From NCBI GenBank assembly GCA_016929295.1, contig JAFGJB010000126.1:1-36538 (forward strand): a DNA stretch of 36,538 bases. Reading direction: 5' to 3'. Each line of letters opens with the position of its first letter. The stretch's first letter is position 1. Position numbers and translations under genes: made by a program. This stretch comes from Candidatus Zhuqueibacterota bacterium (GTDB lineage: Bacteria > Zhuqueibacterota > Zhuqueibacteria > Residuimicrobiales > Krinioviventaceae). Positions 8,173 to 35,610 of the stretch are shown here, piece by piece. The notes beneath the pieces are model-generated. The model did no database searches and was not told the origin of the DNA. It saw only the letters and a program-made list of their open reading frames with translations.

Positions 8173-8184
8173 GGGGAAAAAATC

Positions 8185-9399: not shown

Positions 9400-9404
9400 A
9401 GCAG

Positions 9405-11116: not shown

Positions 11117-11117
11117 T

Positions 11118-12173: not shown

Positions 12174-12209
12174 TGCGGATATGATCAGCATTGGCGAATG
12201 GAGAGTGAC

Positions 12210-18085: not shown

Positions 18086-18166
18086 GGCTGAAAGAATGAT
18101 CACAAATTTGCACCGCTATCGTTTGAATGGACAAGTTGCCTGTGCACACTCCAGCGGACCGGTTTG

Positions 18167-19030
18167 ATGCGAAAGCTTTATTTCGAGGATCGTGTGACTG
18201 AAACAAATATCGCCAATCTTTTCTGGACAGGGGGCTGGGATTCGACTTTTCGACTGCTTCAGCTTCTCCTGGTGGAAAGAAAAAAGGTGCAGCCTTACTA
18301 CCTGATCGATCCCGACCGCCCGTCACTGGCCATGGAATTGCGAACGATGCGCGATATTAAAATAAAGCTGTTCGAGCAGCATCCGGAGACGCGCGAGATG
18401 CTCTTGGCGACAAGGTTCAAACACATTGCCGATATAGAACCGAATGCCATGATAACGGAGAACTATGAAAAGATATGCGAAAAGACAGCCCTGGGTTGCC
18501 AGTATGAGTGGTTGGCCAGATTTGCGCATGAACAGCGCATTCAGAATCTCGAACTTGCTGTCGGGCAGCCGGATGGCGCCTTATATCAAATCCTGGTGCC
18601 TTTTGTCATCCGTTCACCGTACAGTCAAAACACATTTGTGTTGGATGAAAAATTTTGCGGGCTCGCGGTCTATGAGCTTTTCAAGGCGTTTGCTTTGCCG
18701 CTGTTCAATCTGTCGAAAATGCAAATGAAAAAGATCTCTCAAGAGAACGGCTATTGTGACCTGATGAGTTTAACCTGGTTTTGTCATCAGCCATGGAAAA
18801 ACAGGCCGTGCGGCGTGTGTCGACCCTGCATCTGCACCCGCGGAGAGGGAGTGGGGAGATCTTTCCCTCTTGCCAGTCGCTTGCGATACATGTTCTACAT
18901 TCGGCTGGGTATGAAAGCGAATTTTCACACTCTTTTTCACTCTGTAAAAAAGGTGGGATATTTTGCCGGCTCTCTAAAGAGCAACAAGATGCATTTCCAA
19001 GACATTGCTGAAATAACGACGAATGGCTGA
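18167..19030 (+). CDS. QueC-like PP-loop ATPase in the polysaccharide operon
   Basis: A 287-aa protein. The N-terminal PP-loop reads W20-T-G-G-W-D-S-T27, the S-G-G-x-D-S motif of ATP-pyrophosphatases. Near the C terminus, C206-x8-C215-x2-C218-x2-C221 has the same spacing as the zinc site of QueC (7-cyano-7-deazaguanine synthase), followed by a C-T-R-G-E segment like the QueC C-x-x-R. QueC turns a carboxylate into a nitrile via an adenylated intermediate. No other queuosine genes are here, and the protein is longer than QueC (about 220-230 aa), so a role in converting a carboxylated sugar to an amide or nitrile is possible (inference). ATG 18167 follows an in-frame TTG. It overlaps the flippase gene by 8 nt. 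Confidence 0.72.
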   Translation: MRKLYFEDRVTETNIANLFWTGGWDSTFRLLQLLLVERKKVQPYYLIDPDRPSLAMELRTMRDIKIKLFEQHPETREMLLATRFKHIADIEPNAMITENYEKICEKTALGCQYEWLARFAHEQRIQNLELAVGQPDGALYQILVPFVIRSPYSQNTFVLDEKFCGLAVYELFKAFALPLFNLSKMQMKKISQENGYCDLMSLTWFCHQPWKNRPCGVCRPCICTRGEGVGRSFPLASRLRYMFYIRLGMKANFHTLFHSVKKVGYFAGSLKSNKMHFQDIAEITTNG

Positions 19031-20522: not shown

Positions 20523-20553
20523 GTGTATTTTTAATTCAGTGGGATCTTTGATC

Positions 20554-21477
20554 ATGGCGCCATTTTTTAGCGTCGTCCTGCCAACGCACAATCGAGGGCA
20601 TTTTCTTCGCGAGTCGATAAAAAGCGTGCTGACGCAAACGTTCGGCGATTTTGAGCTGTTGGTCGTTGACGATAGCGGCAGCGAAATGACGAGAGAGATA
20701 ACTCGGTCATTTTCTGATGATCGTATAAAATATGTGCTGAATGAGAGGCGACAAGGCGGCGCCGGAGCGCGCAATGCTGGCATATTTTCAGCCCGAGGTG
20801 AATGGATTGCTTTTCTGGATGATGATGATATCTGGCTGCCCGAAAAATTGTTCAAGATGGCTGAAAAGATCAAATCCGCCGATGCCGATGTCGGCCTTTT
20901 ATATTCCGGGCATGCTTTTTACGATTTTGATTGTGATAAAGTTAAATCGCAGGCGCTACCGCAACACAAAGGCTGGCTATTTCATGAGCTTTTATATAAA
21001 AATATCATCGGCGGATTCAGCAGCGTGATCATCCGCAGGGACATCCTGCTGAAAATAAATGGCCTGGACGAAAATTTTCCGGCATTCCAGGACGGGGAAT
21101 TGTTCGTCCGAGTTGCAGAGATTGCCAAAATTGACTTTGTCAGAGAAATCCTGGTCTATATTCGCGTTTCCAATGAGGATCGTATCTCTTTTGATCGAAA
21201 AAAGAAATTGGCGGCTTTTGTGCAATTTGACAAAAAGTACAGTCAACAGATAAAGAGATGTCATCGGCTAAAGCATCGTTCATCCGCAAGAATTTTTGCC
21301 TATGCTGTTCTGCAGAGAAATATGGCGATGGCGTTGAGGGTGCTGCCGCGGATTTTCGGTTTATGTGCGAATGGCTCGACCATCGTCAGCCTGGCGCGAT
21401 TTTTTAGATCAGAATTATGCCATCATCCTCAAAAAGCTCGTATAGATGAGAATCAACATGTCACATCGCACTCCTGA
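20554..21477 (+). CDS. Glycosyltransferase family 2
   Basis: A 307-aa GT-A enzyme. S-V-V-L-P-T-H-N-R at the N terminus, L-L-V-V-D-D-S-G-S and the metal-binding cluster F-L-D-D-D-D-I-W-L-P-E-K-L are all clear. After the catalytic core comes a typical acceptor-domain helix region and a basic C terminus. ATG 20554 with GGGA at 20541-20544 is preferred over an in-frame GTG at 20539. The end overlaps the CapA gene by up to 32 nt. Substrate unknown. Confidence 0.9.
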   Translation: MAPFFSVVLPTHNRGHFLRESIKSVLTQTFGDFELLVVDDSGSEMTREITRSFSDDRIKYVLNERRQGGAGARNAGIFSARGEWIAFLDDDDIWLPEKLFKMAEKIKSADADVGLLYSGHAFYDFDCDKVKSQALPQHKGWLFHELLYKNIIGGFSSVIIRRDILLKINGLDENFPAFQDGELFVRVAEIAKIDFVREILVYIRVSNEDRISFDRKKKLAAFVQFDKKYSQQIKRCHRLKHRSSARIFAYAVLQRNMAMALRVLPRIFGLCANGSTIVSLARFFRSELCHHPQKARIDENQHVTSHS

Positions 21478-22621
21478 TACGACGGTGCTCATCGGCGGCG
21501 ATGTCTGTCCCGGACGAAGAAATTTGCCATTTTTCATCGACGGCGACGCGCACAGCTTGTTCAATGATCTGTTGAACGACTTTGTCAGCGCAGATCTCTC
21601 CATGATTAATCTTGAATGCCCGCTCATCGAAAAACATACTCCTATCGACAAAGTTGGCCCCACGCTTGGAGCGGACAGCCGCGCTATTCGTGCCATCGGA
21701 GCAGCGGGAATCGATATTGTCCTTTTGGCCAATAACCATATCATGGATCATGGGCCAGCCGGATTGGCAAATACTTTGAATGTTCTCAAAAACGCGAAAA
21801 TTACCACCGTCGGGGCGGGTAAAAATATAGAGGCGGCGCGACAAGTCGTCATTAAAAAAGTGAATCATTTGAGAATCGGACTAGTGGCAATGGCTGAACA
21901 CGAATTTTCTATTGCCACGGAAAATTCAGCGGGCGCCAATCCATTGGATTTAATCGAATACAGTCGCATTGTGCGCGCGAATAGAAAACGGCTAGATTAT
22001 TTGATCGTGATCCTGCACGGCGGCAGTGAATACTATTCCTATCCGAGTCCAAACTTGAAAAAGACATGCCGCTTCCTCGTCGAAACGGGCGCGAATGCGG
22101 TTATCGTTCAGCACCCACATTTTCCCGGCTGCTACGAAAAGTATCAGGATGCCTACATCGTCTATGGGCAGGGAAATCTCATTTTCGACAGCGCCGGCAA
22201 GGATGAGATGTTTTACCTCGGATATCTCGTCAAGCTGAGCATTGCTGCGAATCTTTGTGCAACGATCGATATTATTCCATATGAGCAATCAAAGACCTGT
22301 ATCGGCGCCCGCGGACTGCAGAACGAAAAAAAGCAATTGTTCATGGAATCGCTTCGGGAAAGATCGGCCAGGATTCATGATGACGCTTTTTTGATGAAAA
22401 ACTGGCTGGAATTTTGTGAGACAAAAAGAAGCTTTTATCTCGGCAACATGTTCCTTGGCAACGCGCTGTTGCGCAAGCTGAATAAAAATGGCGCACTCCT
22501 CAAACTGTTCAAGGACGCAAAATCATTATTGACGATTCGCCATTTCATCTCGTGTGAAACGCATCAAGAAGCCATCCTGACAATTTTGCAGGATGAAAAG
22601 ATTCAGAACAAGGTATTTTAG
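21446..22621 (+). CDS. CapA/PgsA-family metallophosphoesterase-like protein (first copy)
   Basis: A 391-aa protein of the CapA family (poly-gamma-glutamate capsule protein; calcineurin-like fold). All family blocks are visible: G-G-D-V-C-P-G-R, I-N-L-E-C-P-L, L-A-N-N-H-I-M-D-H-G, L-H-G-G-S-E-Y, V-Q-H-P-H-F and G-Q-G-N-L-I-F-D. Unlike Bacillus PgsA there is no N-terminal membrane anchor, so it is probably cytosolic. ATG 21446 or 21458 are both possible. It is followed after 3 nt by an ATP-grasp ligase, an unusual pairing. The C-terminal 120 residues lie outside the phosphoesterase fold and were not recognised. CapA members also occur in sugar-polymer loci, where their substrate is unknown. Confidence 0.87.
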   Translation: MRINMSHRTPDTTVLIGGDVCPGRRNLPFFIDGDAHSLFNDLLNDFVSADLSMINLECPLIEKHTPIDKVGPTLGADSRAIRAIGAAGIDIVLLANNHIMDHGPAGLANTLNVLKNAKITTVGAGKNIEAARQVVIKKVNHLRIGLVAMAEHEFSIATENSAGANPLDLIEYSRIVRANRKRLDYLIVILHGGSEYYSYPSPNLKKTCRFLVETGANAVIVQHPHFPGCYEKYQDAYIVYGQGNLIFDSAGKDEMFYLGYLVKLSIAANLCATIDIIPYEQSKTCIGARGLQNEKKQLFMESLRERSARIHDDAFLMKNWLEFCETKRSFYLGNMFLGNALLRKLNKNGALLKLFKDAKSLLTIRHFISCETHQEAILTILQDEKIQNKVF

Positions 22622-22624
22622 CGG

Positions 22625-23716
22625 ATGGTTGTTGTGCAGCGAAAGAATATAAAACTGGCCATACATGACGCGCCGGGAGGATTTTCGGATCGGTGGATTC
22701 GCTACTGCTGGCAAAAAGGCCTGGCTCACAAGATTGTCGATTGCTTCGCTGTCGATCTATTTGGCCAGCTCAGAGATGTCGATGGTCTGTTGTGGCACTG
22801 GACGCACGATAATAGTGCGGGTCAGTTGGTGGCACGACAGATCATCACATCGGCAGAGATGGCGGGCATAAAGGTGTTCCCCAATCGGCAGACGTGCTGG
22901 CATTATGATGATAAAATAGCGCAAAAGTACGCGCTCGAGGCGATTGGGGCGGCCATTGTGCCATCACATGTTTTTTTTGATGAAGAACAAGCCTGCCAAT
23001 GGATCAACACAACCGACTATCCCAAAGTGTTCAAGCTGCGGTGTGGCGCGGGCTCGCGCAATGTCAAGCTGGTGACATCGCAGAAACAGGCGATCGCTCT
23101 CTGCAAGACGGCATTTGACTGTGGATTCGATGCCAAAAATGGTTATTTTGATGATTTCCAGACGAAATTGCGGAAGAGCAAACGTCCGGCAGAACTGTTA
23201 AGCAAAATCAGGCGATTTCCCGCCACTTTGGCCGCGATTCGCAAACAACGCGCGCACTCGCCAAAGCAAATAGGCTATATCTATTTTCAGGATTTTATGC
23301 CGGGCAACGCTTTCGATACCAGAGTGACCGTCATAGGCCACAGAGCTTTCGGCTGCGTACGGCAAAATCGGCCCAATGATTTCAGAGCATCGGGAAGCGG
23401 CATGATCAATTACTCGAGGGACAATGTCGATGTGAGATGCATTGAAATGGCTTTCACTGTCTCCAGTCGATTGAAGGCGCAGTGTTTGGCATATGATTTT
23501 CTATTTGACGAGAATCATCGTCCACGGATCAGCGAGTTCAGCTATTGTTTTCCGCCAAAGAACAAATACATGTATCCGGGTTATTGGGACGATTCATTGA
23601 CCTGGCATTCTGCCTATGTCTGTCCCGAATACTTTATCATTGAAGATCTGATAAAAGATATTTTGTCGAGCAAGCCTCATCCGGTCCGTGAAGAGATTTA
23701 TGATCCGGCTTTTTAA
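22625..23716 (+). CDS. ATP-grasp family ligase
   Basis: A 363-aa protein with ATP-grasp character. F-P-N-R-Q-T-C-W-H-Y-D-D-K at about 90 leads into the ATP-binding subdomain. Y-P-K-V-F-K-L-R-C-G-A-G-S-R-N-V (about 135-150) holds the nucleotide Lys and Gly loop, and F-Q-D-F-M-P-G-N-A-F-D-T-R-V is the equivalent of the family E-F-x-x-G-x-D-x-R-V segment. Near the end, Y-D-F-L-F-D-E-N and I-S-E-F-S-Y match the metal-binding region. Such enzymes join a carboxylate to an amine through an acyl-phosphate, suggesting an amino acid or amine attached to a carboxylated sugar (inference). It lies between CapA and the polymerase gene and overlaps the latter by 17 nt. Confidence 0.78.
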   Translation: MVVVQRKNIKLAIHDAPGGFSDRWIRYCWQKGLAHKIVDCFAVDLFGQLRDVDGLLWHWTHDNSAGQLVARQIITSAEMAGIKVFPNRQTCWHYDDKIAQKYALEAIGAAIVPSHVFFDEEQACQWINTTDYPKVFKLRCGAGSRNVKLVTSQKQAIALCKTAFDCGFDAKNGYFDDFQTKLRKSKRPAELLSKIRRFPATLAAIRKQRAHSPKQIGYIYFQDFMPGNAFDTRVTVIGHRAFGCVRQNRPNDFRASGSGMINYSRDNVDVRCIEMAFTVSSRLKAQCLAYDFLFDENHRPRISEFSYCFPPKNKYMYPGYWDDSLTWHSAYVCPEYFIIEDLIKDILSSKPHPVREEIYDPAF

Positions 23717-24974
23717 TAAAGTAAAAACCAACACGGTCTGCTTTGCGGACAATCGTATTGTGCCCGGCAACCTGTTTGAATGGCTGCTGTTGCCATTCAT
23801 CGTTGGTCTGTTGACGCTCAGTCATTTACCGGGATTTTCCAAAATAATGGTCGTCTATGGATTTGGCTTTGGCGCCTTGTATGTGCTGAATATTCTCTAT
23901 TTTAAAAAAAGGCCGAATATCCCGCCTGAAGTTATCCTCTATCTTTTATGGATCGCCTGGTCATTGACCGGAATGATCAACGCACCTGACCGCAGCGTCT
24001 ACTGGCAGGGATTGACGACGCTGCTGCAAATGGCCGTCATGATAATAGTCATTGCCGGCATCACCGCAACCTATCGCAATCTGAACGTCGTTCTCGCAGC
24101 CATCCTGATCGGCGGCCTCATCGTGGCGCTTTCAGGTTTTGTCTCCGGCGAATTTCAATTGGCGAGCGAGCTCGAGTCAAAAAGTCGCGCCACCGGTCTG
24201 ACAAACAATGCAAACAGCTTTGCCTACAGTTTGTTATTCATCATTTTTTCAAGTGTCTATTTTTTTCGCCACAACCGTGGCTTGTTGAAACAATTTGTCC
24301 TGGCTGGCTTTTTTGTCTGTGCGGTCGTCGGCATTGTCTATTCGGGATCGAGAAAAGGATTCCTCGGTCTTTTATTTTTCATCGCTCTGCTATTCTTCTT
24401 AACAAAGGGTAAGTATTTATTGCGCAAGCCGCTCTACAGCTTTTTATTGTTCACCTCTCTGTTTTCCGTCGTCTATGCCGGCACCAATTTTGTGTTGGCC
24501 AGAACCTATTTGGGCAAGAGAATGACGTACACCGCAAGTGAAGGGGCGCCCACACGCGTTCAAATGTATAAGGAGGGCTTTGAGCTCATTCGACAATACC
24601 CTCTGACCGGGGTGGGATTGAATAATTATCGCGTTTTCTCCTCTTTTGGCAAATACTCTCATTCTGATTACATTGAAGTCGCTGCCAATACCGGGCTGGT
24701 CGGCTGTGCTCTCTACTTTGCAGTTTATCTCCTGTTGTGGCTGCGCCTGAAAAGACTGAAATCAAGATACGGTCATGTCGAATTGACCTTTTTCATTGCT
24801 TTTGCCAAAGCATCCATTTTTACAATTCTTGTGCTTGGATTTGGCAGGCCGAATATCGCTTCCAAGATCACCTGGTGCTTTTTAGCAGCACTTGTGGGTT
24901 ATAGCTGGGCAATTGAAAAATCATTGCGATCAATTGACCGAGGGACTGCAAAAGTTTGTCTTCATTCGCATTGA
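23700..24974 (+). CDS. O-antigen polymerase/ligase-family protein (Wzy-like)
   Basis: A 424-aa membrane protein with about 10-12 hydrophobic segments and a large periplasmic loop. The Wzy_C/O-antigen-ligase core is recognisable: Y-S-G-S-R-K-G in the membrane region, then R-V-Q-M-Y-K-E-G-F, Y-P-L-T-G-V-G-L-N-N-Y and S-H-S-D-Y-I-E-V-A-A-N-T-G-L-V-G. It would polymerise flipped repeat units, controlled by the Wzz-like protein, although a ligase role cannot be excluded. ATG 23700 (AAGAGA just upstream) overlaps the ATP-grasp gene by 17 nt; GTG 23688 is an alternative. Confidence 0.9.
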   Translation: MIRLFNKVKTNTVCFADNRIVPGNLFEWLLLPFIVGLLTLSHLPGFSKIMVVYGFGFGALYVLNILYFKKRPNIPPEVILYLLWIAWSLTGMINAPDRSVYWQGLTTLLQMAVMIIVIAGITATYRNLNVVLAAILIGGLIVALSGFVSGEFQLASELESKSRATGLTNNANSFAYSLLFIIFSSVYFFRHNRGLLKQFVLAGFFVCAVVGIVYSGSRKGFLGLLFFIALLFFLTKGKYLLRKPLYSFLLFTSLFSVVYAGTNFVLARTYLGKRMTYTASEGAPTRVQMYKEGFELIRQYPLTGVGLNNYRVFSSFGKYSHSDYIEVAANTGLVGCALYFAVYLLLWLRLKRLKSRYGHVELTFFIAFAKASIFTILVLGFGRPNIASKITWCFLAALVGYSWAIEKSLRSIDRGTAKVCLHSH

Positions 24975-25005
24975 TTGTGGATTTACTATTTAATATGGCC
25001 TAGTC

Positions 25006-26214
25006 ATGAAAATCCTGCCGGCACAAATTTTTCCCGATTTTCCGGAGGATCTGCCACTGCTCAATATCGTGCAGCGGCAAGCTGCTGCTCCGCATGTCCG
25101 CATCTGCGCGGGGGGAGATATGAGTTTTTCCGGCAAAGTTGCGACGGTGCTGGAAGAGCCCGGCGCCAATCCTTTCAGTGAAATATCACCGCTGTTGCGC
25201 TCTTCTGACATCGTCTTTGCCAACCTCGAGTCCACGATTCGCACCGGCAATGAGCAACTGTCCATGTTCACCTCGCCAAAAAGCTGCCTGGATATTCTGA
25301 AAAATGCCGGCTTTTCGATACTGCATCTGGCGAACAATCATATTTATGATCATGGGCCTGAAGGATTGGCCGCGACAATTATGGCCCTCCGCCGCTGCGG
25401 GATCGTGCCTTTGGGCGCGGGAGAGACGGCCGAGGGATCGCGACGTCTTGTGCGGACGGATGCAAACGGATTGCGCATCGGCTGGCTCGGCTGCGGCCGC
25501 ACGCATGTGATGCAGCAAGATCATGGGTCACATTTTTGGGAATTTGACGAAAAGTCGATTCTCGAGGCAACCCGCAGTGCTGCAAAAGAGGTCGATATCC
25601 TCGTTCTTTCACTACACAAAGGATTCATGGACGTTGATTTTCCCGCTCCGGAAGACAAGATTCTTTCTGAAAAATTGATAGGCGCCGGCGCCGATCTGGT
25701 GCTCATGCACCATGCCCACGTCTTGCAGGGCATTCAATCGCTGCACGGCGAAGGGCTTGTCTGTTTCTCCCTGGGAAACCTTCTCTTCGATTCCAGCGAA
25801 GGCTACATCACGCCCTCCGGCAGGCAACAAGAACAAGATTCCTCTGCCATATTTGTTTTTGATTTCGACAGGGAGGGATTGGCGGCCGCATTTCTTTTGC
25901 CGATCTTTGTTGATCAGGATCAAATGATACGATTCGCCACAGGCGCACGCGGGCGAGAGATTCTGCAGAGAGTGATACAGATCAGTGAGTGTCTGAGCGA
26001 TAATTATGCAGAGCGCTTTATAGAGCAAAGAGTCGAGCGAAATTTCAGTCACGGCGTCCGAATGCTCTCCTATCACGCGACTCGAGGTCATTTTAAGATT
26101 GTTTGGGATATACTGAGATGCGCTCGGCCAAAACATTTTGCTCTGCTTTGCCGCTGGCTTTTACAAAGAATCGCGCGGATGAAAAAACACCCGCTTATGA
26201 CGTCCGGGCGCTGA
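25006..26214 (+). CDS. CapA/PgsA-family metallophosphoesterase-like protein (second copy)
   Basis: A 402-aa paralog of the protein at 21446. Blocks: G-G-D-M-S-F-S-G, A-N-L-E-S-T-I, L-A-N-N-H-I-Y-D-H-G-P-E-G-L, M-H-H-A-H-V and S-L-G-N-L-L-F-D. The metal ligands (Asp, Asn-His, His-x-His) are kept. However, the usual H-W-G/H-G-G-x-E block of the first copy reads L-H-K-G-F-M-D here, so the substrate pocket differs. It has no signal peptide or membrane helix. Having two divergent CapA proteins around an ATP-grasp ligase and a polymerase suggests they act at two steps or on two substrates. Confidence 0.87.
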   Translation: MKILPAQIFPDFPEDLPLLNIVQRQAAAPHVRICAGGDMSFSGKVATVLEEPGANPFSEISPLLRSSDIVFANLESTIRTGNEQLSMFTSPKSCLDILKNAGFSILHLANNHIYDHGPEGLAATIMALRRCGIVPLGAGETAEGSRRLVRTDANGLRIGWLGCGRTHVMQQDHGSHFWEFDEKSILEATRSAAKEVDILVLSLHKGFMDVDFPAPEDKILSEKLIGAGADLVLMHHAHVLQGIQSLHGEGLVCFSLGNLLFDSSEGYITPSGRQQEQDSSAIFVFDFDREGLAAAFLLPIFVDQDQMIRFATGARGREILQRVIQISECLSDNYAERFIEQRVERNFSHGVRMLSYHATRGHFKIVWDILRCARPKHFALLCRWLLQRIARMKKHPLMTSGR

Positions 26215-26226
26215 AAGGACAACGCC

Positions 26227-27411
26227 TTGCATGGCATGACGAGAAACCCTGATATCGTTTTTATCGCCGGCACCCTTGGCCTGGGCGGAGCGGAGAGACA
26301 ACTCTATTATGTATTGCAGGCGCTGAGACGGAATGGCATGACGCCAGTCGTGCTGAGCATAACCTCGGGCGAGGCGTGGGAAGACAAAATACGCGAGTTG
26401 GGTGTTCAAGTCAGGTGGATCGGGCGCTGTAAATTTCCGCTTGTCAGATTGCTCTCTATATTATTGCTGCTTTTAAGGCATCGTCCTGAAATAATTCAAA
26501 GCGTCCACTTTCACACGAATCTCTATACAATGCTTGCCGCCAGACTGTTGCACGTTTTCGAAATCGGGGCTATCAGAAATGATGCCTATGGCGAGGTGAG
26601 ACGACTCAAGCGCTGGGGCGGACTGTTATTGCATTCGCCCAGAGTGCTTTTTGCCAATTCGGCGCACGGCATAAAGAACGCCATCGACCTGGGCGTTCCG
26701 CCGGCGCGATTGCGGCTATTGCCAAATGCCGTCGACAGCTCGATCTTCAAACCATCGCGGAAGAAGCATGACGGCAGCGTCCATGTCGTGACCATCGGAC
26801 GCCTGGCGCCGCAAAAAAGAATGGACCGCTTTTTGGCAGTATTCAAGCGCGTCACTTTGCAACGATCGTTGCAAGTGGATGTGAAAGGGACAATTGTCGG
26901 GAGTGGACCGTTGCGAGAAGAGCTTTTGGCTTATGCGCGCGAATTGCGGCTCTTCCCCCGGTTCGTTCAACTGCGAGAGAGTACGGACGATATTCTATCT
27001 GTTTATCGTGATGCCGATATTTTGGTTTTGACCTCGGACTATGAAGGCACTCCAAATGTTGTGCTGGAAGCGATGGCCTGCGGCCTGCCGGTGGTGGCTT
27101 TTGGCATTGCGGCGATTCGCGAGATCATCTGTCACGCGGAGACGGGCATCATTGTAGAACCCGGGGACATCTCGGCAATGGCAAATGTCATTGTGTCGCT
27201 GGCAAACGATAAAGAGTGGCGTGAATCCATTGGACGTCAGGCCCGCAGATATATTTTAAAGAGTCGTTCTCTCGATGTCTTGGAGAAAAACTTGTCTTCC
27301 TATTATGGCGGGATCATTGCCCCGCCGGCAATTTTGCCCTCTCCGCCGCAGGTGGTGATGGAAAAAAATGTGAGCGTATGCCATTCTCTTTTCGGCAGTC
27401 AGCGTGGATAA
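26227..27411 (+). CDS. Glycosyltransferase family 4
   Basis: A 394-aa GT-B enzyme. The N-terminal G-L-G-G-A-E-R-Q-L binds the acceptor or phosphate, V-V-T-I-G-R-L-A-P-Q-K-R-M-D opens the second Rossmann domain, and E-G-T-P-N-V-V-L-E-A-M-A-C-G-L-P-V-V is the E-x7-E donor site. The TTG at 26227 has AAAGGA 7 nt before it and is taken as the start; ATG 26236 is in frame but further from the ribosome-binding site. It overlaps the next gene by 8 nt. Confidence 0.9.
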   Translation: MHGMTRNPDIVFIAGTLGLGGAERQLYYVLQALRRNGMTPVVLSITSGEAWEDKIRELGVQVRWIGRCKFPLVRLLSILLLLLRHRPEIIQSVHFHTNLYTMLAARLLHVFEIGAIRNDAYGEVRRLKRWGGLLLHSPRVLFANSAHGIKNAIDLGVPPARLRLLPNAVDSSIFKPSRKKHDGSVHVVTIGRLAPQKRMDRFLAVFKRVTLQRSLQVDVKGTIVGSGPLREELLAYARELRLFPRFVQLRESTDDILSVYRDADILVLTSDYEGTPNVVLEAMACGLPVVAFGIAAIREIICHAETGIIVEPGDISAMANVIVSLANDKEWRESIGRQARRYILKSRSLDVLEKNLSSYYGGIIAPPAILPSPPQVVMEKNVSVCHSLFGSQRG

Positions 27412-28447
27412 ATCGATTTTAATCATCGGCAATTTTTTATCCGCCACAAGAGGGGTGCGCAGCATTTGTGAAGACCTGTCCGAGCAGTTGGCGCTACATG
27501 GCTGGTCGGTGGTGAAGACATCGTGCAAATCCGCACGCATCCCTCGTCTGAGCGATATGCTCTATACGGTCTGGGCTAAACGTCGAGAATATGTCATTGC
27601 TCATGTCGATGTTTTTAGCGGCAAAGCGTTTTACCTGTCACAGATCGTCTGTTTTTTTCTGCGTCTATTGCGAAAACCGTTTGTCCTTTCATTGCACGGT
27701 GGCGGTTTGCCACAATTTGCTCGCCGGCATCCGGCTCGCGTCAAACGATTATTCGCCGCCGCGACTGCCATTACGGCGCCATCATCATACCTGACAGAAA
27801 AGATGAAGCCTTTTTGTGACGATATTCGTTTGATACCTAACCCCATCAATCTGGATTTGTACGAGTACAAAGTGAGAAGAAAAAGCTCCCCCTGTCTCGT
27901 TTGGCTACGTTCATTCCACACTATTTATAATCCGCTTCTGGCGCCAAAGGTGATCGCGCTGCTCGCCAAAAGGTTTCCTGATATCCATCTGACCATGATC
28001 GGACCGGACAAGGGCGACGGCAGCAAAAAACGCACGCGAGAACTGTCCGTGCAGTTGGGCGTGCACCATCATCTCACTATCGCGGAACGGATTGCCAAAT
28101 TGGACATTTCAAAAAATTTGAACGCCGCTGATATTTTTATCAATACCACGAGCATTGATAACACGCCGGTCACTGTGCTCGAAGCGATGGCATGCGGATT
28201 GTGCATTGTGAGCACAAACGTCGGCGGCATACCCTATCTTTTGCATCATCAGGAGGATTCGTTGCTCGTGCCTCCTGATGATCCGCAGGCAATGGCGGAT
28301 GCGATAGAGCGTCTTTTACGGGACGATCAGCTCGCGGAAAAACTGTCCAGGAATGCGCGCCAACAGGTTGAGAAATTTGCCTGGCCGCGCGTGATGTGCC
28401 AATGGGAATCGCTACTGTGCACGGTTGCCGGGGGAAAATGGGCGTGA
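27404..28447 (+). CDS. Glycosyltransferase family 4
   Basis: A 347-aa GT-B enzyme beginning with GTG (M-D-K-S-I-L-I-I-G-N-F). L-S-L-H-G-G-G-L lies in the first domain. The donor-site block reads N-T-P-V-T-V-L-E-A-M-A-C-G-L, with Asn where the usual first Glu stands, while the second Glu is kept. It overlaps its neighbours on both sides (8 and 10 nt), so it is translationally coupled in the operon. Sugar specificity unknown. Confidence 0.88.
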   Translation: MDKSILIIGNFLSATRGVRSICEDLSEQLALHGWSVVKTSCKSARIPRLSDMLYTVWAKRREYVIAHVDVFSGKAFYLSQIVCFFLRLLRKPFVLSLHGGGLPQFARRHPARVKRLFAAATAITAPSSYLTEKMKPFCDDIRLIPNPINLDLYEYKVRRKSSPCLVWLRSFHTIYNPLLAPKVIALLAKRFPDIHLTMIGPDKGDGSKKRTRELSVQLGVHHHLTIAERIAKLDISKNLNAADIFINTTSIDNTPVTVLEAMACGLCIVSTNVGGIPYLLHHQEDSLLVPPDDPQAMADAIERLLRDDQLAEKLSRNARQQVEKFAWPRVMCQWESLLCTVAGGKWA

Positions 28448-29850
28448 ACAAGCATATTCTATCCTTTTATCATCATTCGCCTTATTTTATGCGCTGCGTC
28501 GCCGCTTCCGTGCACTGCTGCGGCTTGTATTCGTGGAGATATGGCAGCGATACGGACGGTATGGTCGAGGAGGCCCTGGCGCGCGAAGAGTGGAGCTCCG
28601 AGCGTTGGCAAGCCTGGCGGGAAGAAAAGCTGGAGCAAACACTTGAACTGGCGGCGAGGAATGTCCCTTATTACCGAGAGCACTGGTCAAAACGGCGCCG
28701 ACAGGGTGAGCGAGGCGCTCACAAATATCTGCAGAATTGGCCGATTCTGCAAAAGAGCGAGGTGCGGAAAAATCCGGCTGCTTTTATTGCAGATAATTTT
28801 CAACGCCGTCACCTGTTGCCCGAATACACCAGCGGCTCGACCGGTACGCCGCTGGTCATCTATAAGAGCAGAGCAAGCCTGCGAGCATGGTATGCGCTGG
28901 CAGAGGCGCGTTGGCGAAGGTGGTATGGCGTATCGCGCCAAGATCGCTGGGCTATTTTAGGCGGACAACTCATCGTCCCCGTCAAAAGAAAAAAGCCGCC
29001 GTTCTGGATTTGGAATCCCGTCTTCAACCAGCTCTACATGTCCTCCTATCATCTCTCCGACAGCTCTTTTCGCTTTTACGTTGCGGCGTTGATAAAGTAT
29101 AAAATCAGCTACATCTATGGCTATACGTCATCACTCTATGCGCTGGCGATGGATTGTCTGTCAAAAAAAGTAAAGATGCCGTCACTTGCCGTGGTGATCA
29201 CCTGCGCTGAACCGTTGCTGGACTATCAGCGCGACGTCATTGCAGAAGCTTTTCACTGTCCTGTTCGGGAGACTTATGGCTTGACCGAGATGGTCATCGC
29301 GGCGAGCGAATGCGAGCGGGGGCAGCTGCATCTCTGGCCGGAGGCCGGCATTTACGAGATTTGCGAGGATGGCAACGGCACTACCCCAGGCGGCGAGATC
29401 ATTTGTACGGGATTGCTGAACGCGGCGATGCCGCTCATCCGCTACCAGGTGGGCGATCGCGGCGCCCTTGACGATCAAGTGAGGAGCAGCTGTTCGTGCG
29501 GACGCGCGCTGCCCATTCTCAAGAATATAGATGGACGAAATGATGATGTTTTGTATACTGCGGATGGACGAAGAATCGGGCGACTCGATTTGATTTTCAA
29601 AGGACATTTGCCGCTCCGCGAGGCTCAGATTGTCCAGGAGACGCTGGGTCAAATCAAAGTCCTCTATGTTCCGACAGCGGATTTTAGTCAGAAAACGATC
29701 GATATCTTGCGGGAAAATATCCACGCGCACGTGGGCGACATACAAATTGTTTTCGAAAGAGTGGAAAAGATACCGCGAAACAAGGCCGGCAAATTCCGCT
29801 TTGTCATGAGCAAAATCCAGCCTCCCGACGCGGCAACAACTCTCCGTTGA
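28438..29850 (+). CDS. PaaK/CapK-like adenylate-forming enzyme
   Basis: A 470-aa member of the phenylacetate-CoA ligase-like (CapK) branch of the ANL superfamily. The phosphate-binding loop Y-T-S-G-S-T-G-T-P (about 130-138), the T-Y-G-L-T-E-M motif, the Y-Q-V-G-D-R-G aspartate block and the C-terminal R-N-K-A-G-K-F-R lysine segment are all present, so both half-reactions look possible. ATG 28438 with GGGGGA just upstream is chosen over 28396. CapK-like genes recur in capsule loci without a proven substrate; activation of an acyl or amino-acyl decoration is plausible (inference). It is the last gene of the dense operon and is followed by a repeat element. Confidence 0.86.
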   Translation: MGVNKHILSFYHHSPYFMRCVAASVHCCGLYSWRYGSDTDGMVEEALAREEWSSERWQAWREEKLEQTLELAARNVPYYREHWSKRRRQGERGAHKYLQNWPILQKSEVRKNPAAFIADNFQRRHLLPEYTSGSTGTPLVIYKSRASLRAWYALAEARWRRWYGVSRQDRWAILGGQLIVPVKRKKPPFWIWNPVFNQLYMSSYHLSDSSFRFYVAALIKYKISYIYGYTSSLYALAMDCLSKKVKMPSLAVVITCAEPLLDYQRDVIAEAFHCPVRETYGLTEMVIAASECERGQLHLWPEAGIYEICEDGNGTTPGGEIICTGLLNAAMPLIRYQVGDRGALDDQVRSSCSCGRALPILKNIDGRNDDVLYTADGRRIGRLDLIFKGHLPLREAQIVQETLGQIKVLYVPTADFSQKTIDILRENIHAHVGDIQIVFERVEKIPRNKAGKFRFVMSKIQPPDAATTLR

Positions 29851-30225
29851 TCCAGCTCATACGGCCAAATCGACGAGCAAGAGCGCCGCGAGATGGAATC
29901 TTTATATTCGACGGTTCTTCCGCAAAATGGGTACTTGGAACCGGCGAGGACACGAAGAAGCTTGGCGCGGCCTATGGCCGCAACCAAAAATATCCAAACC
30001 GCCGAGAAAAGTGCTTTGATAAAGATACGAGTGCACCGAGACCACCGAGAAAATAAATGAAACAAAACTTTAGATCTTTGTAAAAAAAATGTTTATCACG
30101 TTCACTCCATGCGCCATTATAGAAGAAAAAACGTCTGTTTTTCCTCTGTGGCCCTCGGCGTTCCCGGCGGTTGAGTGCGCGTTATACGGATGAACCTACT
30201 CGATGCAAAGAGGTGTTTTTACGAG
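29851..30225 (+). other. Non-coding gap after the main operon
   Basis: 375 nt without a supported gene. Most of it is the dispersed repeat element (29961-30172). The first 110 nt include a G-A-rich stretch (about 29936-29960) that resembles the outer part of the element. No T-tailed terminator hairpin was found directly behind the stop at 29850. Confidence 0.6.
29961..30172 (+). repeat. Dispersed intergenic repeat, copy 1
   Basis: It starts with a 46-nt core (29961-30006) that contains the hairpin GCGGCC-TAT-GGCCGC (29967-29981) and ends in ACCGCCGAG. The core matches the reverse complement of 36261-36306 at 43 of 46 positions. The element ends with an arm (30143-30172: CCTCTGTG, CTCGGCG, CCGGCGGTT) that is the inverted counterpart of the core-proximal ACCGCCGAG arm. 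The interior is longer and more degenerate than in copy 2 and contains further CACCGAG/CCACCGAG units (about 30033-30048). Confidence 0.75.
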
Positions 30226-31311
30226 ATGCAAAAGAACATCAAACCTGGAGTCTCTATCATCATCCCGGTGCGAAACGAGTTCAGATACATCCATGGTTGC
30301 CTGATGTCGATTCTCGCCATGGAGCCTGTGGATGGGGCGCTGGAGATTTTGATTATTGATGGTATGTCGGAGGACGGCACGCGCGCTATACTGGAAGGAT
30401 GGCGAGGACGCCATCCGGCGATAAAAATATTGGACAATCCGCAAAAACACGTCCCCGCTGCGCTCAATATCGGCATTCGTCATGCACAGGGTGACTGGAT
30501 CGTGCGCATGGATGCGCATGCCGAATATCCCAAAAATTATCTGAAACGATGTCTGGAAACGGCCATTCGCACCCAGGCGGAAAATGTCGGCGGCAGAGTG
30601 ATATCCCGGTGCCTGGATTCCGGCATCCAGGGGAAAATCATTCAGGCGCTGACGACAAATGTATTCGGCGTCGGCAATGCTCGATTTCGTCTTGGCGGGG
30701 CAGCCGGCTGGACGGATACCGTCGCTTTTGGCTGCTATCGCGCCGATGTTTTTCAAAAGATCGGCCTTTTTGATGAGCGGCTGCGCAGAAATCAGGACTA
30801 TGAATTCAATAAACGACTGCGCGCCGCCGGCGGACGGGTGTGGTTTGAGCCGTCCATTGCCGTCAATTATTATAATCAAACCACGCTGAAGGGCCTCGGA
30901 GGGCAGGCGCTCAAAACCGGCTGCTGGAATGTATGGACGTGGACTATTGCCCCCTATGCCTTCTCCTGGCGACATGTCGTTCCCTTGCTGTTTGTCCTGT
31001 CGTTGATCTTGGACATCCTGCTCATCGCCATCGCCCGGTCAGCGGCATGCCAATTGTTAGCGGCGACGGCCGCAGCGTATTTTGCTGTCGCATTTTTGGC
31101 AAGTTCGACGGTGATCGTCAAGCGGCGAAATTTACTTTACGCCTGTCTGCCATTTTTATTTTTCATCTACCATTTGACGTATGGTCTTGGAGAACTGTGG
31201 GGTATCGTATCATTGATCAGCGGAAAGGCGCCTGTCGGGATAACTTTAAAGAAAGCGCCGTGTCGGCATCGCAATCGAAAGATTTATGATCCGTTAAGCC
31301 ATCCAGGCTGA
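30226..31311 (+). CDS. ExoA-like glycosyltransferase family 2 with C-terminal membrane helices
   Basis: A 361-aa protein. V-S-I-I-I-P-V-R-N-E opens the GT-A domain; L-I-I-D-G-M-S-E-D-G-T and V-R-M-D-A-H-A form the nucleotide/metal site. F-G-V-G-N-A-R-F and V-A-F-G-C-Y-R, followed by L-F-D-E-R-L-R-R-N-Q-D-Y-E-F-N, are typical of succinoglycan ExoA-type glucosyltransferases. Two to three hydrophobic helices follow (about 262-330). Start uncertain: 30226 has AGAGGTG 10-12 nt upstream; ATG 30190 and GTG 30175 are in frame, the last directly abutting the repeat element. It may be transcribed separately from the upstream operon because the repeat intervenes. Confidence 0.87.
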   Translation: MQKNIKPGVSIIIPVRNEFRYIHGCLMSILAMEPVDGALEILIIDGMSEDGTRAILEGWRGRHPAIKILDNPQKHVPAALNIGIRHAQGDWIVRMDAHAEYPKNYLKRCLETAIRTQAENVGGRVISRCLDSGIQGKIIQALTTNVFGVGNARFRLGGAAGWTDTVAFGCYRADVFQKIGLFDERLRRNQDYEFNKRLRAAGGRVWFEPSIAVNYYNQTTLKGLGGQALKTGCWNVWTWTIAPYAFSWRHVVPLLFVLSLILDILLIAIARSAACQLLAATAAAYFAVAFLASSTVIVKRRNLLYACLPFLFFIYHLTYGLGELWGIVSLISGKAPVGITLKKAPCRHRNRKIYDPLSHPG

Positions 31312-31403: not shown

Positions 31404-33209
31404 ATGCGTGAAAAAGCAAACTCGCTAATGTTTCTCGTTGCGGCATTCATACTCATATCAAGCTCAAGTTTTGCGACAACTTTTTATGTGAGTGACAAAG
31501 GCAGCGATACTAATTCCGGAACGCAGAGTGCGCCGTTTAAAACGATTCAAAAAGCCGCCGATCGTGCGATCGCCGGCGATATCGTCCTGGTGATGGAAGG
31601 CGCCTATGCCGGATTTGTCCTCGAAAATAAAAAAGGCACGGCATCGAGCTGGATCGTCTTCAAGCCCTACAACGGACAAAAGGTCATCATCGATATCAAC
31701 ACTAATCCGTCATCAGTGCAGCGAGCAGTTGATATCATCAGCTCGAGCTACATTGAGGTTAACGGATTTGTCATGACAGATACAAATCCGTTATACGATA
31801 GCGACAATCCGGCTGATTACAGAACCGGAATAAATCATGAAGCCGTCAAGTTGAGTATGGAAGATTCCGACCCGCCATCGTACATTCGAATTATCAATAA
31901 TCATATATCTCATATTGGTTTCACAGCCATTTATGCCTCGTATTACGCGCACCATTGTGAATTTGTCAATAATGAAATCAGCCATGTCGGTTTGAGCAAG
32001 CGCGGTTATGGGATGTACATTGGTGGAGATGATCATATCATCCGTGGCAACACCATCAGTGACGCGTATGGTCACGCCATTCATGTCTATTCGGAAGGAG
32101 GGCCGAGACCGGATCGCAACATTATAGAAAATAACAGATGCTTTAATAATGGCCACATGGATTATGGCGCGGGCGAGCCGGATCCCAATGTCAGCAAGGG
32201 AAGAATAGGCGATGGCATCGTCGTCATGGGAGGCGGTGAAAACAATATCATTCAGAACAATCTTGTCTACAATAACATCTGTTGGGGCATCCGCTGCAGC
32301 GGCAGAAAGTCAAAGATCATCAATAATACCGCTTATAGTAACGGCTATCAAGGCATCTACCTGTATGACAATACAAATTCCATCGTCAGAAATAATCTGA
32401 GCCTGCGCAATAAAAGTGAAGGGACAACGCCGGGAAATGATTATATCGGCGCCGGCACTGTTCACGATCATAATTCGTGGAATTTAAATCTCGTTGATCC
32501 GCAATTCATCAATCCGGGTAACGGAGATTTTCATTTGCTCGACAATGCCACGGCGATAAACCGGGGCAGTGGCGATGGCGCTCCCAGCAGTGATTTTGAT
32601 GGCAATCCGCGACCGCTCGATGGCGCATGGGATCTGGGCGCGTACGAATACACGGGCGAATCATTTGCTGATCTCAAGATCGTTGATATCAAGATCACCG
32701 AGGTGAACGGATCGGATCAAGTGCCTCATGTCATTCCCGGTACATGGTACGATTTGATAGTCAGTTTTGCCGGCTGGAGCGACATCTCTTTCGCGGATGT
32801 CTGGCTGAGCCACAGCTCCAGTTCTGAAGGATCGGTCGCGAACCGGGGCGGGCGTTTTTTCGCCGAGAGCAATTATGTGCTGAGCTATTCGATCAGCACC
32901 GATCAGATTTGGGCCTGCGAAACAGAGGGATCGAACAAGAGTACAAATATCACCGGCCGATGCGGTCTCTATATTGACGACGACCAGGGAGAGTATGTTC
33001 AAAATAGTCAAGAGCAGTGGGCAAAGGCGCGATTCAGGTGGCTCGACAATGCATGGTCGGGACAATGGACAGTGCACGGTTATATTGTGACGAAAACGGG
33101 ACAAAAAACCGGCCTTTTTGCGACCGAAACAGAGATGCAAAGCAAGTTGTCCGATAATACACCTCCGAGCAAGCCTCAGGAAGTGCAAGTGCATTTCATC
33201 AACGATTAG
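31404..33209 (+). CDS. Secreted right-handed parallel beta-helix protein, possible polysaccharide lyase/epimerase
   Basis: A 601-aa protein. Signal peptide 1-24 ends S-S-F-A. A DUF1565-type start (F-Y-V-S-D-K-G-S-D-T-N-S-G-T and F-K-T-I-Q-K-A) leads into a parallel beta-helix to about residue 400, with many N-N-x-I/N-N turns (I-I-N-N-H-I, I-I-E-N-N-R, I-I-Q-N-N-L, I-V-R-N-N-L). An R-P-L-D-G-A-W-D-L-G-A-Y-E-Y segment closes the helix. A beta-rich domain with C-E-T-E-G and D-D-D-Q-G-E-Y follows (about 420-580). The last residues, P-P-S-K-P-Q-E-V-Q-V, look like the first strand of an FN3 domain that then stops at TAG; no sorting domain is attached. AAGGA (31393-31397) supports the start. Family members cut, epimerise or bind polysaccharides. 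Confidence 0.83.
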   Translation: MREKANSLMFLVAAFILISSSSFATTFYVSDKGSDTNSGTQSAPFKTIQKAADRAIAGDIVLVMEGAYAGFVLENKKGTASSWIVFKPYNGQKVIIDINTNPSSVQRAVDIISSSYIEVNGFVMTDTNPLYDSDNPADYRTGINHEAVKLSMEDSDPPSYIRIINNHISHIGFTAIYASYYAHHCEFVNNEISHVGLSKRGYGMYIGGDDHIIRGNTISDAYGHAIHVYSEGGPRPDRNIIENNRCFNNGHMDYGAGEPDPNVSKGRIGDGIVVMGGGENNIIQNNLVYNNICWGIRCSGRKSKIINNTAYSNGYQGIYLYDNTNSIVRNNLSLRNKSEGTTPGNDYIGAGTVHDHNSWNLNLVDPQFINPGNGDFHLLDNATAINRGSGDGAPSSDFDGNPRPLDGAWDLGAYEYTGESFADLKIVDIKITEVNGSDQVPHVIPGTWYDLIVSFAGWSDISFADVWLSHSSSSEGSVANRGGRFFAESNYVLSYSISTDQIWACETEGSNKSTNITGRCGLYIDDDQGEYVQNSQEQWAKARFRWLDNAWSGQWTVHGYIVTKTGQKTGLFATETEMQSKLSDNTPPSKPQEVQVHFIND

Positions 33210-33230
33210 AAAATCGCTAGTCGCACAGCT

Positions 33231-33851
33231 TTGAAATTCAGCACCTACAAGTTTCTGGTGTTATCCGACTTGTATCGTATCACGGGAAGCGTCAAAACGA
33301 TGGCTTTGCTGCGCACGTTGGTGTGTGGCGGGCCTTTCAAGTATAGTTTCTGGATGCGATCCTGTCAATACCTTGATAGCCATTCCCTTCTCAAGTATAC
33401 TTTTTTCCCGATTGCCTGGCTGTGGCTGCACCACTTGAATTACAAATTTGGTATTTCAATTTCTTACAAGACGCAGATTGGCAGCGGCTTTTATATTGGG
33501 CATTATGGCGGCATCGTCGTCAATAGCAAGAGCATCATCGGGAAAAATGTCAATATTTCTCATGGCGTCACCCTGGGTCTGGCCAATCGCGGCAGGAAAA
33601 AGGGCGTCCCCACCCTGGGTGACAATATTTATCTGGGGCCGGGCGCCAAGATAGTGGGTGCTGTGACGATTGGCAACAATGTCGCTATTGGCGCCAATTG
33701 TGTTGTGACCAGAGATATTCCTGATAATGCTGTTGTCATCGGCATCCCCGGCAGAGTTATTTCTCAAAGCGGAGCAAAGGGATATATCGTGCGAACGGAT
33801 TATGAGGATAAAATAAAGGCGCCATCGCGCGCTGACCAATGCGCAAAGTAA
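33231..33851 (+). CDS. CysE-like hexapeptide O-acetyltransferase
   Basis: A 206-aa left-handed beta-helix acyltransferase. The N-terminal S-D-L-Y-R-I-T-G and F-W-M-R-S-C-Q-Y belong to the serine-acetyltransferase-like family found in EPS loci. Hexapeptide repeats run from G-I-S-I-S-Y-K-T-Q-I-G (about 74) to I-G-I-P-G-R-V-I, with the catalytic His in I-S-H-G-V-T-L-G. It probably O-acetylates a sugar of the polymer. The start is TTG 33231; the reading frame is the same as the upstream beta-helix gene, separated by its TAG and seven codons. A weak ribosome-binding site suggests coupling to the upstream gene. Confidence 0.9.
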   Translation: MKFSTYKFLVLSDLYRITGSVKTMALLRTLVCGGPFKYSFWMRSCQYLDSHSLLKYTFFPIAWLWLHHLNYKFGISISYKTQIGSGFYIGHYGGIVVNSKSIIGKNVNISHGVTLGLANRGRKKGVPTLGDNIYLGPGAKIVGAVTIGNNVAIGANCVVTRDIPDNAVVIGIPGRVISQSGAKGYIVRTDYEDKIKAPSRADQCAK

Positions 33852-33863
33852 AATCGGCAGGCG

Positions 33864-34487
33864 CTATTTTTTCAGCACCAGCCGGCGAACCTCTGTATAA
33901 TCCTTGCCAATAAATCTCGCAAAATAAAGTCCTGTCGGCACCGCATTGCCCGCATCATCCCGCGCATCCCACTGGATGTTATATGTACCTGGAGCTTTGC
34001 TTTCACTTATCAACGATCTGATTTTTCGTCCCAGTACATCGAATATGACCAGCGAAATGTTTGCACGTTCCGGAACAGCATAAGTGAATGTCGTCGTCGG
34101 ATTGAACGGATTGGGATAATTCTGCTGCAGGGCGAATGTGGTTGGCAGCGATGCTGCGGCGCCGGCGCTTGACGGAATGTCCGCCAGAATATGCACCGGA
34201 TCGGAAAATTCACTGACGTTATGAGCCGAATCCACGGCGACAATTCGGTAATAATAGACGTAGCCAAGTTCAATATCGTCATCCAGGTACACGGATTCCG
34301 CAGCGGAGACGTTGGCTATTTTGGTTTCCACGTCCATTGAGGACGCTCTGTAGACGCCGTAATATTGTACGTCATGTTCCGGGTTGGGGCGCCAGGAGAC
34401 GTGAATGGCCGGTGCGGACAGTGCAGCGCAGCTTGAAACGAGGAGAACAGCTAATTTAAATCCGGGGAGAAGGGACGAATGCTTCAT
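33864..34487 (-). CDS. Small secreted FN3 + T9SS type A sorting-domain protein
   Basis: A 207-aa protein. Its signal peptide (1-25, ending A-L-S-A) is followed directly by I-H-V-S-W-R-P-N-P-E, an FN3 domain that lacks its first strand, up to about 105. A low-complexity linker leads to Q-N-Y-P-N-P-F-N-P (122-130) and the FlgD-like sorting domain with V-I-F-D-V-L-G-R and P-T-G-L-Y-F-A-R. It would be exported and sorted by a T9SS-type route. AGGA lies just upstream of the start. It converges with the acetyltransferase gene, with 12 nt between the two stops. The N-terminal half is paralogous to the gene at 34696. Confidence 0.85.
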   Translation of the reverse strand: MKHSSLLPGFKLAVLLVSSCAALSAPAIHVSWRPNPEHDVQYYGVYRASSMDVETKIANVSAAESVYLDDDIELGYVYYYRIVAVDSAHNVSEFSDPVHILADIPSSAGAAASLPTTFALQQNYPNPFNPTTTFTYAVPERANISLVIFDVLGRKIRSLISESKAPGTYNIQWDARDDAGNAVPTGLYFARFIGKDYTEVRRLVLKK

Positions 34488-34695
34488 GATCCTGCTTTCT
34501 GGTCGCTTGTGAAAAAATACGACTCGATGTTTTTCTTGATGAAAACGATTTTTGGCTTCGGAGCGCTACAATTTACGTGCCATGGTCAGAACCACCTTAC
34601 GGAACGTCAAGTGTTCATTGATCAATCGGCTGATGGCAAGCATGTTACAAGAATCAAACATATTACAGGCTACTATTACTCGTATTGGTAAATAC

Positions 34696-35610
34696 CTATT
34701 TGATGAATGTCATCCTTTTCATTTCCTGAAATGCGCCGGCCTGGAGATTGTAGAAATAGAGACCTGCGCTCAGATCGGTGGCGTCAAATGACACTTTGTG
34801 GGTGCCGGCCTGCAATGGCTGATCTACGACTCTGGCGACTTCGCGGCCGAGCAGATCAAATACGGCTAGCTTTACCTGACTATCTTGTTTCAGCTGAAAG
34901 ACAATTTGTGTCGATGGATTGAACGGATTCGGATAATTTTGCCCCAGGGCCCATTCTTTCGGGGCGGATACTTCAAACTGCACCATAGCAGAGTATTCGA
35001 ACGCGCCTTTTACATCGTTCTGTTTCAGACGATAAAAGTAGACTCCCTCTGTTGTCGCCTCCTCATCGATGAATTCGTAATACTGCGCTTCGGACGTCGT
35101 GCCACAGCCTTTGCGAAAGCCGATCTTTTTCCAGTTCAGATCATTGCCGATGGAGCGTTCAACATCAAAACCAAGATTGTTGGTCTCGTTCACTGTTTGC
35201 CATGTCAGGAGTAAAGCGTTGCTCACGCTAGTGGGCGCATATTGAACGGTGAAAGAGGCCAGCTCGACCGGCGTGGTATCGTCGAAAGATGAACTGCTGT
35301 CGGCCAGGATATGCGCCATGTCGGAGAACTCGCTGATGTTGTCCGACGAGTCCACGGCGACGATGCGATAGTAGTACACGGTGCTGAGGACAATGTCCTG
35401 ATCAACGAAGAGAGATTGTGACGCCGGCACCTGCGCAATTTCGGTCTCCGGATTCATCGACGATGCTCGATAAATACTATAATGTTTTATATCGGATTCG
35501 GGATTAAGCTCCCACGTGACCTGAATTGCGTAAGCGGACAAACGAGTCCAACTGCAGCATATGAAAGTGATGACAATGCAACTCTTGACAATGAACAACC
35601 GTGTTTTCAT
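34696..35610 (-). CDS. Secreted protein with two FN3-like domains and T9SS type A sorting domain
   Basis: A 304-aa protein. A signal peptide (1-26, ending R-L-S-A) is followed at once by A-I-Q-V-T-W-E-L-N-P-E, again an FN3 domain missing its first strand, closely similar to the neighbouring protein (Y-R-A-S-S-M, V-Y-Y-Y-R-I-V-A-V-D-S, S-E-F-S-D, H-I-L-A-D shared). A second FN3-like domain (about 114-213: V-E-L-A-S-F, L-L-T-W-Q-T) and the sorting domain (Q-N-Y-P-N-P-F-N-P-S from 224) follow. ATG 35610 is preferred over 35658 because CGGGGA lies upstream and the signal peptide then starts with M-K-T-R. A TATAAA at about 35693-35698 (minus strand) may belong to its promoter. Confidence 0.86.
   Translation of the reverse strand: MKTRLFIVKSCIVITFICCSWTRLSAYAIQVTWELNPESDIKHYSIYRASSMNPETEIAQVPASQSLFVDQDIVLSTVYYYRIVAVDSSDNISEFSDMAHILADSSSSFDDTTPVELASFTVQYAPTSVSNALLLTWQTVNETNNLGFDVERSIGNDLNWKKIGFRKGCGTTSEAQYYEFIDEEATTEGVYFYRLKQNDVKGAFEYSAMVQFEVSAPKEWALGQNYPNPFNPSTQIVFQLKQDSQVKLAVFDLLGREVARVVDQPLQAGTHKVSFDATDLSAGLYFYNLQAGAFQEMKRMTFIK

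Follow-up and report, generated by a model that had tools for sequence, protein, structure and literature searches.

Introduction

Incomplete beta-sandwich domains can be completed by a strand from the end of another chain, a principle termed donor-strand complementation or exchange and known from chaperone-usher pili and TasA fibres (PMC10903470). The type IX secretion system (T9SS) moves folded proteins (PMC9251779), and structures of its translocon resolve well, of the bound substrate, just the sorting domain (PMC10994853); a passenger attached non-covalently to a sorting domain is therefore plausible. Here we analysed a 36,538-nucleotide stretch of a Candidatus Zhuqueibacterota genome (contig JAFGJB010000126.1 of assembly GCA_016929295.1), referred to as the window, in which a secreted beta-helix protein (P0001, the cargo) and two small proteins (P0002 and P0003, the adaptors) appear to divide one fibronectin type III (FN3) domain between them. 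On comparative sequence evidence and structure prediction, the FN3 domain is probably rejoined by strand donation, which would give a cargo without a C-terminal sorting domain (CTD) a T9SS sorting domain in trans, in an arrangement that by analogy would work like donor-strand complementation. Among the papers searched, none described a T9SS passenger carried by a separate sorting-domain protein or a natural split FN3 domain, and to our knowledge split FN3 is known only from engineered fragment complementation. Genomes (G), contigs (C), loci (L) and proteins (P) are cited by our own numbers, the source genome being G000.

Results

The cargo stops after FN3 strand A and both adaptors start at strand B

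The cargo P0001 (31404..33209, plus strand) is a secreted right-handed beta-helix protein of 601 residues with an immunoglobulin-like (Ig-like) domain, which matched beta-helix and choice-of-anchor-Q families. It terminates directly behind the first strand (A) of an FN3 domain, the C-terminus being SDNTPPSKPQEVQVHFIND (33150..33206, plus strand; all C-termini quoted here run to the stop codon), and this tail was assigned as the putative donor strand by a profile gain, by disorder in the structural model and by the ratio of nonsynonymous to synonymous differences (pN/pS). No match to TIGR04183, PF18962 or CHU_C was found in P0001, so that the cargo alone lacks the sorting domain expected of a T9SS substrate. 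In an AlphaFold2 model based on a shallow alignment (5 sequences; predicted local distance difference test score, pLDDT, 62), the last 21 residues of P0001 were disordered and carried no secondary structure. The C-terminus offers a free strand that fits strand A in both sequence and length, as a donor strand should.

Both adaptors are encoded on the minus strand. P0002 (33864..34487) comprises a putative signal peptide, an FN3 domain that lacks strand A (34179..34412) and a T9SS type A sorting domain (33867..34121; TIGR04183, E 6.7e-9, 35.6 bits). P0003 (34696..35610, with its ATG at 35610) has the same parts, namely a putative signal peptide, an FN3 domain without strand A (35299..35532, delimited by alignment and 58% identical to that of P0002) and a type A sorting domain (34699..34935; TIGR04183, E 4.4e-12, 45.8 bits). 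Between its split FN3 and its sorting domain, P0003 has in addition a second FN3-like domain, of the PVELxSF type. Both sorting domains score above the TIGR04183 cut-off of 23 bits, which places both proteins among type A CTD carriers. Their N-termini show a hydrophobic stretch and an A-x-A-like site, tentatively recognized as signal peptides by eye, after which (P)AIHVSW in P0002 and (Y)AIQVTW in P0003 mark the start of strand B. A first-pass annotation, made from the sequence alone, had described P0001 as stopping after strand A without a sorting domain, and the two small minus-strand proteins as starting at strand B after the signal peptide and ending in a sorting domain; reading of the C-terminus, the domain scans and the TIGR04183 matches bore out both statements. 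The T9SS translocon protein SprA was found in the source genome (G000:C315, 900 bits) and in 12/12 other genomes tested.

The assignment of the P0001 tail to strand A and of the adaptor starts to strand B rests on the closest P0003 paralogue in the same genome (L003), because it has both halves in one chain: an FN3–second domain–sorting module is fused there to another body, with strand A present (DNLPPLPPTGLLAFAGEYKVDLQW). The strand-A motif stood at the C-terminus of 17 out of 586 distinct open reading frames (ORFs) of ≥200 residues, compared with 0.4 expected from shuffled C-termini, in a DNA sample enriched for such proteins.

The adaptor FN3 domain is predicted to lack one strand

AlphaFold2 prediction for mature P0002 with 12 relatives gave a mean pLDDT of 84, with block means of 79–96 in the FN3 domain. 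The model contains six FN3 strands (residues 4–7, 16–25, 31–37, 42–45, 53–62 and 74–77), whose order is compatible with B, C, C′, E, F and G, the strand names being assigned by that order, and no strand A; the predicted acceptor fold is therefore one strand short, as in donor-strand systems. The linker of residues 82–102 is largely disordered in the model, hence no residues of P0002's own fill the strand-A gap. The first-pass annotation had named a prediction of complete small FN3 domains as a refuting outcome, and the domain of P0002 is predicted to be incomplete. A Foldseek search of the PDB with the P0002 model returned FN3 tandems as the best matches (E about 2e-5), in agreement with an FN3 fold, and a Pfam scan gave no FN3 match at E 1 or better. 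The Vpr fibril (8jmw) was also a Foldseek match and was set aside, as a word search of its paper found mention of neither FN3 nor donor strands.

Tail and adaptor fit together as one FN3 domain, and the tail is as constrained as the body

In 54 uncut FN3 domains from related DNA, a median of 20 residues (deciles 20–22) separated the strand-B tryptophan from the first proline of strand A, and the split form of P0001 with P0002 or P0003 amounts to 15+6 = 21. Tail and adaptor N-terminus summed to 20 or 21 in 10/10 cargo–adaptor combinations, either as 15+6 or 14+6 in the source phylum or as 12+8 in a second phylum, where a longer adaptor N-terminus offsets a shorter tail; these sums are uncertain by one or two residues because the cleavage sites were assigned by eye. 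When native tails were joined to their adaptors, they matched a profile built from 44 complete FN3 domains better by 14.0–17.8 bits, with 16–18 bits for the P0001 tail on P0002 and P0003. Random C-termini from the same DNA added 1.2–2.4 bits on average and reached the native value in 0–2 of 200 draws, from a pool that included other tails. Between the source genome and its sister species G001, pN/pS was 0.36 for the tail and 0.36 for the body, which argues that the P0001 tail is not a decaying relic. Between the two second-phylum genomes G154 and G295 it was 0.09 and 0.11, respectively, so the tail there is as constrained as the body.

Split pairs recur with unrelated cargo bodies

In G001, the P0001 orthologue is 59% identical over residues 9–600, stops at the same position and ends in ADDTPPSKPQNVNVMFIKP, and both small proteins adjoin it. 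The strand-A motif followed by a stop was also found in proteins of seven other genomes that carry the P0001 beta-helix or Ig-like domain, the latter being shared with further tail-bearing cargos. A profile of the Ig-like domain adjoining the tail matched in 19/82 genomes of the phylum, exactly once in each, and the 18/18 matched proteins with a visible C-terminus ended at the same point after strand A, the motif being degenerate in G023. One apparent exception, a full FN3 domain after the Ig-like domain in G073, was discarded since its ORF runs off the contig and the C-terminus is not visible. Some 300 genomes from outside the phylum contained no clear relative, three of them giving weak matches, and a scan of named genomes returned distant beta-helix proteins only. 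The proteins with Ig-like domain and tail (L080–L098) sit on differing bodies, among them beta-helix, FG-GAP-like and PKD types.

Cargo–adaptor pairs in complete loci were collected from four families (G000, G001, G046 at L074, G052 at L143, G054 at L141 and G024 at L157), in part with an adaptor profile consisting of the signal peptide and the FN3 domain from strand B of the small proteins, and the pairs recur on unrelated cargo bodies. The adaptor lies directly upstream of the tail cargo in G046, in G054 (C244; cargo C-terminus DTLAPAAPKGLRAIFLSK) and in G052 (C47; DDTTSPAAPTGLVVRIID), and the paired cargo of G024 ends in QAPQPPENVQAEFVGG. The G052 pair is the sole one to share a single reading frame, which amounts to 1289 residues. 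A seventh pair, in G037, has its cargo interrupted by the contig end, and the adaptor and cargo of G051 each lie near a contig end in orientations that may reflect one unassembled pair.

Several related arrangements were observed beside these pairs. The G052 cargo (L143 2300–5128) has a complete internal FN3 domain as well as a bare terminal strand A, hence both forms in one protein. G040 has two tandem adaptor-like genes (L146 10148–11041 and 11265–11891), the second without the strand-B tryptophan (AQAVKLAG). G069 and G075 both encode, near the tail cargo, a member of one set of homologues that have a T9SS-type C-terminus (L078 3682–5235 and L079 79–1566), and a beta-helix protein in a glycan locus of G029 (L214 9292–10959) ends in DTSAPRSPQNIKISGSL with no adaptor within 8–9 kb.

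Adaptors of a second phylum lie near a tail-bearing cargo

When the adaptor profile by itself was run against 290 genomes around G322, it led to G154 and G295. The glycan locus of each encodes two FN3–sorting proteins without strand A, one of 290–291 residues and the other, of cadherin type, of 976 residues. Within that locus, at a distance of a few kilobases, an unrelated cargo of 866 or 873 residues ends in EAGSPGQPPSPPKNLRIRP or EAGRPGQPPSPPQNLRIRP, following the pattern PGQPPSPP(K/Q)NLRIRP. Because this cargo was sought as what the hypothesis requires, its presence fulfils a prediction of that hypothesis. Three proteins of these loci were scanned for TIGR04183 and scored 20.5–24.5 bits, close to the cut-off, and SprA was found in both genomes.

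Acceptor domains and tails without an evident partner

Several observations weigh against the proposed pairing. FN3 domains starting at strand B right after the signal peptide are common, making up 46/124 of the scored FN3 starts in the phylum, and include proteins of 1600–1825 residues beside pilus-assembly genes for which no donor is known, so loss of strand A may be tolerated. AlphaFold2 was moreover confident in the six-stranded P0002 FN3 domain by itself, and the model therefore gives no indication that the adaptor is unstable. Some small strand-A-less proteins have no neighbouring tail cargo, and most tail cargos of the Ig type have no adaptor within the 5–10 kb inspected; in several of the genomes without a linked adaptor, the best candidate adaptors sum to 17–19 residues when counted by hand. 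Evolution is faster in the tail than in the body in G078/G081 and G065/G079, both without an adjacent adaptor. Furthermore, the pairing rates are biased upward because the adaptor was the starting point for 3/6 complete pairs. For the unpaired strand-A-less domains, either the donors lie elsewhere or strand A is dispensable. Altogether, a strong case for cargo–adaptor pairing can be made where the two genes are adjacent and in the second phylum, whereas for the other tail cargos pairing is only tentative.

Long proteins of this kind, with about 1780–1820 residues, occur in six genomes (L216 3581–8932, L217 4035–9377, L218 2613–8057, L219 2501–7855, L220 634–6030 and L222 3862–9324) and consist of a signal peptide, a strand-A-less FN3 domain, many repeats and a T9SS-type C-terminus. 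Their genes lie directly upstream of genes for PilD-, response-regulator- and PilB-like proteins and, where the sequence was available, PilC-like ones, and it is possible that they represent a further acceptor and a link between the T9SS and pili.

Genomic context of the source locus

P0001, P0002 and P0003 close an exopolysaccharide locus (1974..31311, plus strand), which encodes a Wza/SLBB export protein, Wzz/GNVR, sugar-nucleotide enzymes, glycosyltransferases, a Wzx-type flippase and a Wzy_C polymerase/ligase. Gene calls for 1974–24974 were made by Pfam matches (Poly_export/SLBB, Wzz/GNVR, Polysacc_synt_2, glycosyltransferases, Polysacc_synt_3 flippase and Wzy_C), and those beyond 24974 by reading the sequence only. 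Inside this locus lies P0004 (15827–18085), a DUF1349/FN3 protein of 752 residues with a T9SS-type sorting domain, and this domain of its own ruled it out as a second cargo. Near the contig end, at 36189–36273, the intergenic region contains an extended inverted repeat that is almost perfect (AACCGCCGAGTGCGCCGAGA ... TCTCGGCGCACTCGGCGGTT) and is possibly a small mobile or dispersed repeat.

Discussion

The comparative data and structure predictions suggest the following course of events. P0001 would use a Sec signal peptide of its own to reach the periplasm, with its C-terminal strand A left unpaired, and a separately exported adaptor would bring strands B–G at its N-terminus together with a type A sorting domain; since each partner has its own signal peptide, the two would meet in the periplasm. 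There, the cargo strand A would dock beside strand B of the adaptor at the position it has in an uncut FN3 domain, and because the donor C-terminus and the acceptor N-terminus flank the A–B turn, docking would recreate a normal FN3 domain nicked in that turn. The T9SS would then export or anchor the cargo together with the adaptor. We thus infer that P0001 binds the adaptors, does so in the periplasm, and is secreted and anchored at the surface with them.

One alternative is that the tail is a docking motif for another partner, that the strand-A-less FN3 domains are complete enough, and that co-occurrence in glycan loci reflects shared regulation. The many N-terminal strand-A-less FN3 domains without known donors and the many tail cargos without an adjacent adaptor would suit this explanation, but the tail fits strand A in sequence and exact length, and the tail cargo of the second phylum was predicted from adaptors alone, which makes it unlikely. 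We consider it improbable, too, that tail and acceptor meet outside the cell after travelling by separate export routes, so that a completed FN3 domain links surface proteins head to tail and no cargo rides on the T9SS. Acceptors do also stand at the N-termini of very long surface proteins and of the 976-residue cadherin-type protein, and fibres of other bacteria, such as pili and TasA, are built by donor-strand exchange (PMC10903470); the cargo, however, has a Sec signal and no known signal for export across the outer membrane, and the paired adaptors all carry T9SS sorting domains, some of which score close to the cut-off.

The first-pass annotation had left a choice between a larger protein split by rearrangement and strand donation by detachable sorting adaptors. 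The stop conserved in G001, the purifying selection on the tail and the presence of such pairs, on unrelated cargo bodies, in further families and a second phylum speak against a one-off rearrangement, and no fused orthologue spanning tail and sorting domain was found in G001, in the phylum genomes or in the about 300 genomes outside. Strand donation is the much better supported of the two, on comparative evidence and structure prediction. An ancient fission, in which a single beta-helix/FN3/sorting gene broke up and its products have ceased to interact, is very improbable: the source genome does have the FN3–second domain–sorting module fused to other bodies (L003), but selection on the tail equals that on the body, both halves have kept signal peptides, and they are retained together in distant genomes. 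Truncation of a fused gene by an assembly or frameshift artefact, for which the draft state of the genome (367 contigs) might speak, is refuted, since the stop lies at the same position in the orthologue of the sister species, an independent genome, and in some 20 further cargos.

The preferred reading, strand donation between cargo and adaptor, can be extended, with considerable doubt, to a general connector: the split FN3 domain might serve surface proteins of T9SS bacteria in at least two phyla as plug and socket, with C-terminal strand-A donors, N-terminal strand-A-less acceptors, a sorting domain in trans for cargos without a CTD, and the long proteins beside pilus genes as further sockets. 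The recurrence of the split in two phyla suggests that bacteria attach an export tag after synthesis instead of encoding it in one gene. If strand donation holds, searches for sorting domains alone miss T9SS substrates, and any protein whose C-terminus is an unpaired FN3 strand A would borrow such a domain; many unexplained small FN3–sorting proteins in exopolysaccharide loci would gain a role. It would also be a natural, modular use of split FN3, and offer a compact system for testing T9SS export of non-covalent complexes.

Among described systems, RbmA of Vibrio cholerae, one of the Foldseek matches of the P0002 model, likewise has FN3 folds in an exopolysaccharide matrix protein; its tandem FN3 domains lie in one chain, and the parts of the RbmA literature consulted describe no sorting domain in trans. 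Co-export of signal-less hitchhiker subunits, as with Tat hydrogenases and in peroxisomes, is similar in that one subunit targets a folded complex (PMC9251779), but the machinery differs, and the link here would be a single split domain. Dedicated partners of T9SS substrates are known for type B CTD proteins, namely PorP/SprF-like or shuttle partners; as far as the sections consulted describe them, these act on substrates that bear a CTD, whereas the partner here supplies it (PMC9143113, PMC12618676). The adaptors resemble standard type A substrates (TIGR04183/PF18962; PMC10994853), with putative Sec signal peptides and in genomes with SprA, yet ordinary type A substrates hold passenger and sorting domain in one chain, and the cargo here has no sorting domain. 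Donor-strand exchange, for which a chaperone or usher was neither seen here nor sought, differs in its fold and geometry: the acceptor here would be an FN3 domain short of strand A, and a large cargo would donate that strand from its C-terminus. The acceptor, moreover, bears a T9SS sorting domain, and strand donation would join two different proteins instead of polymerising one.

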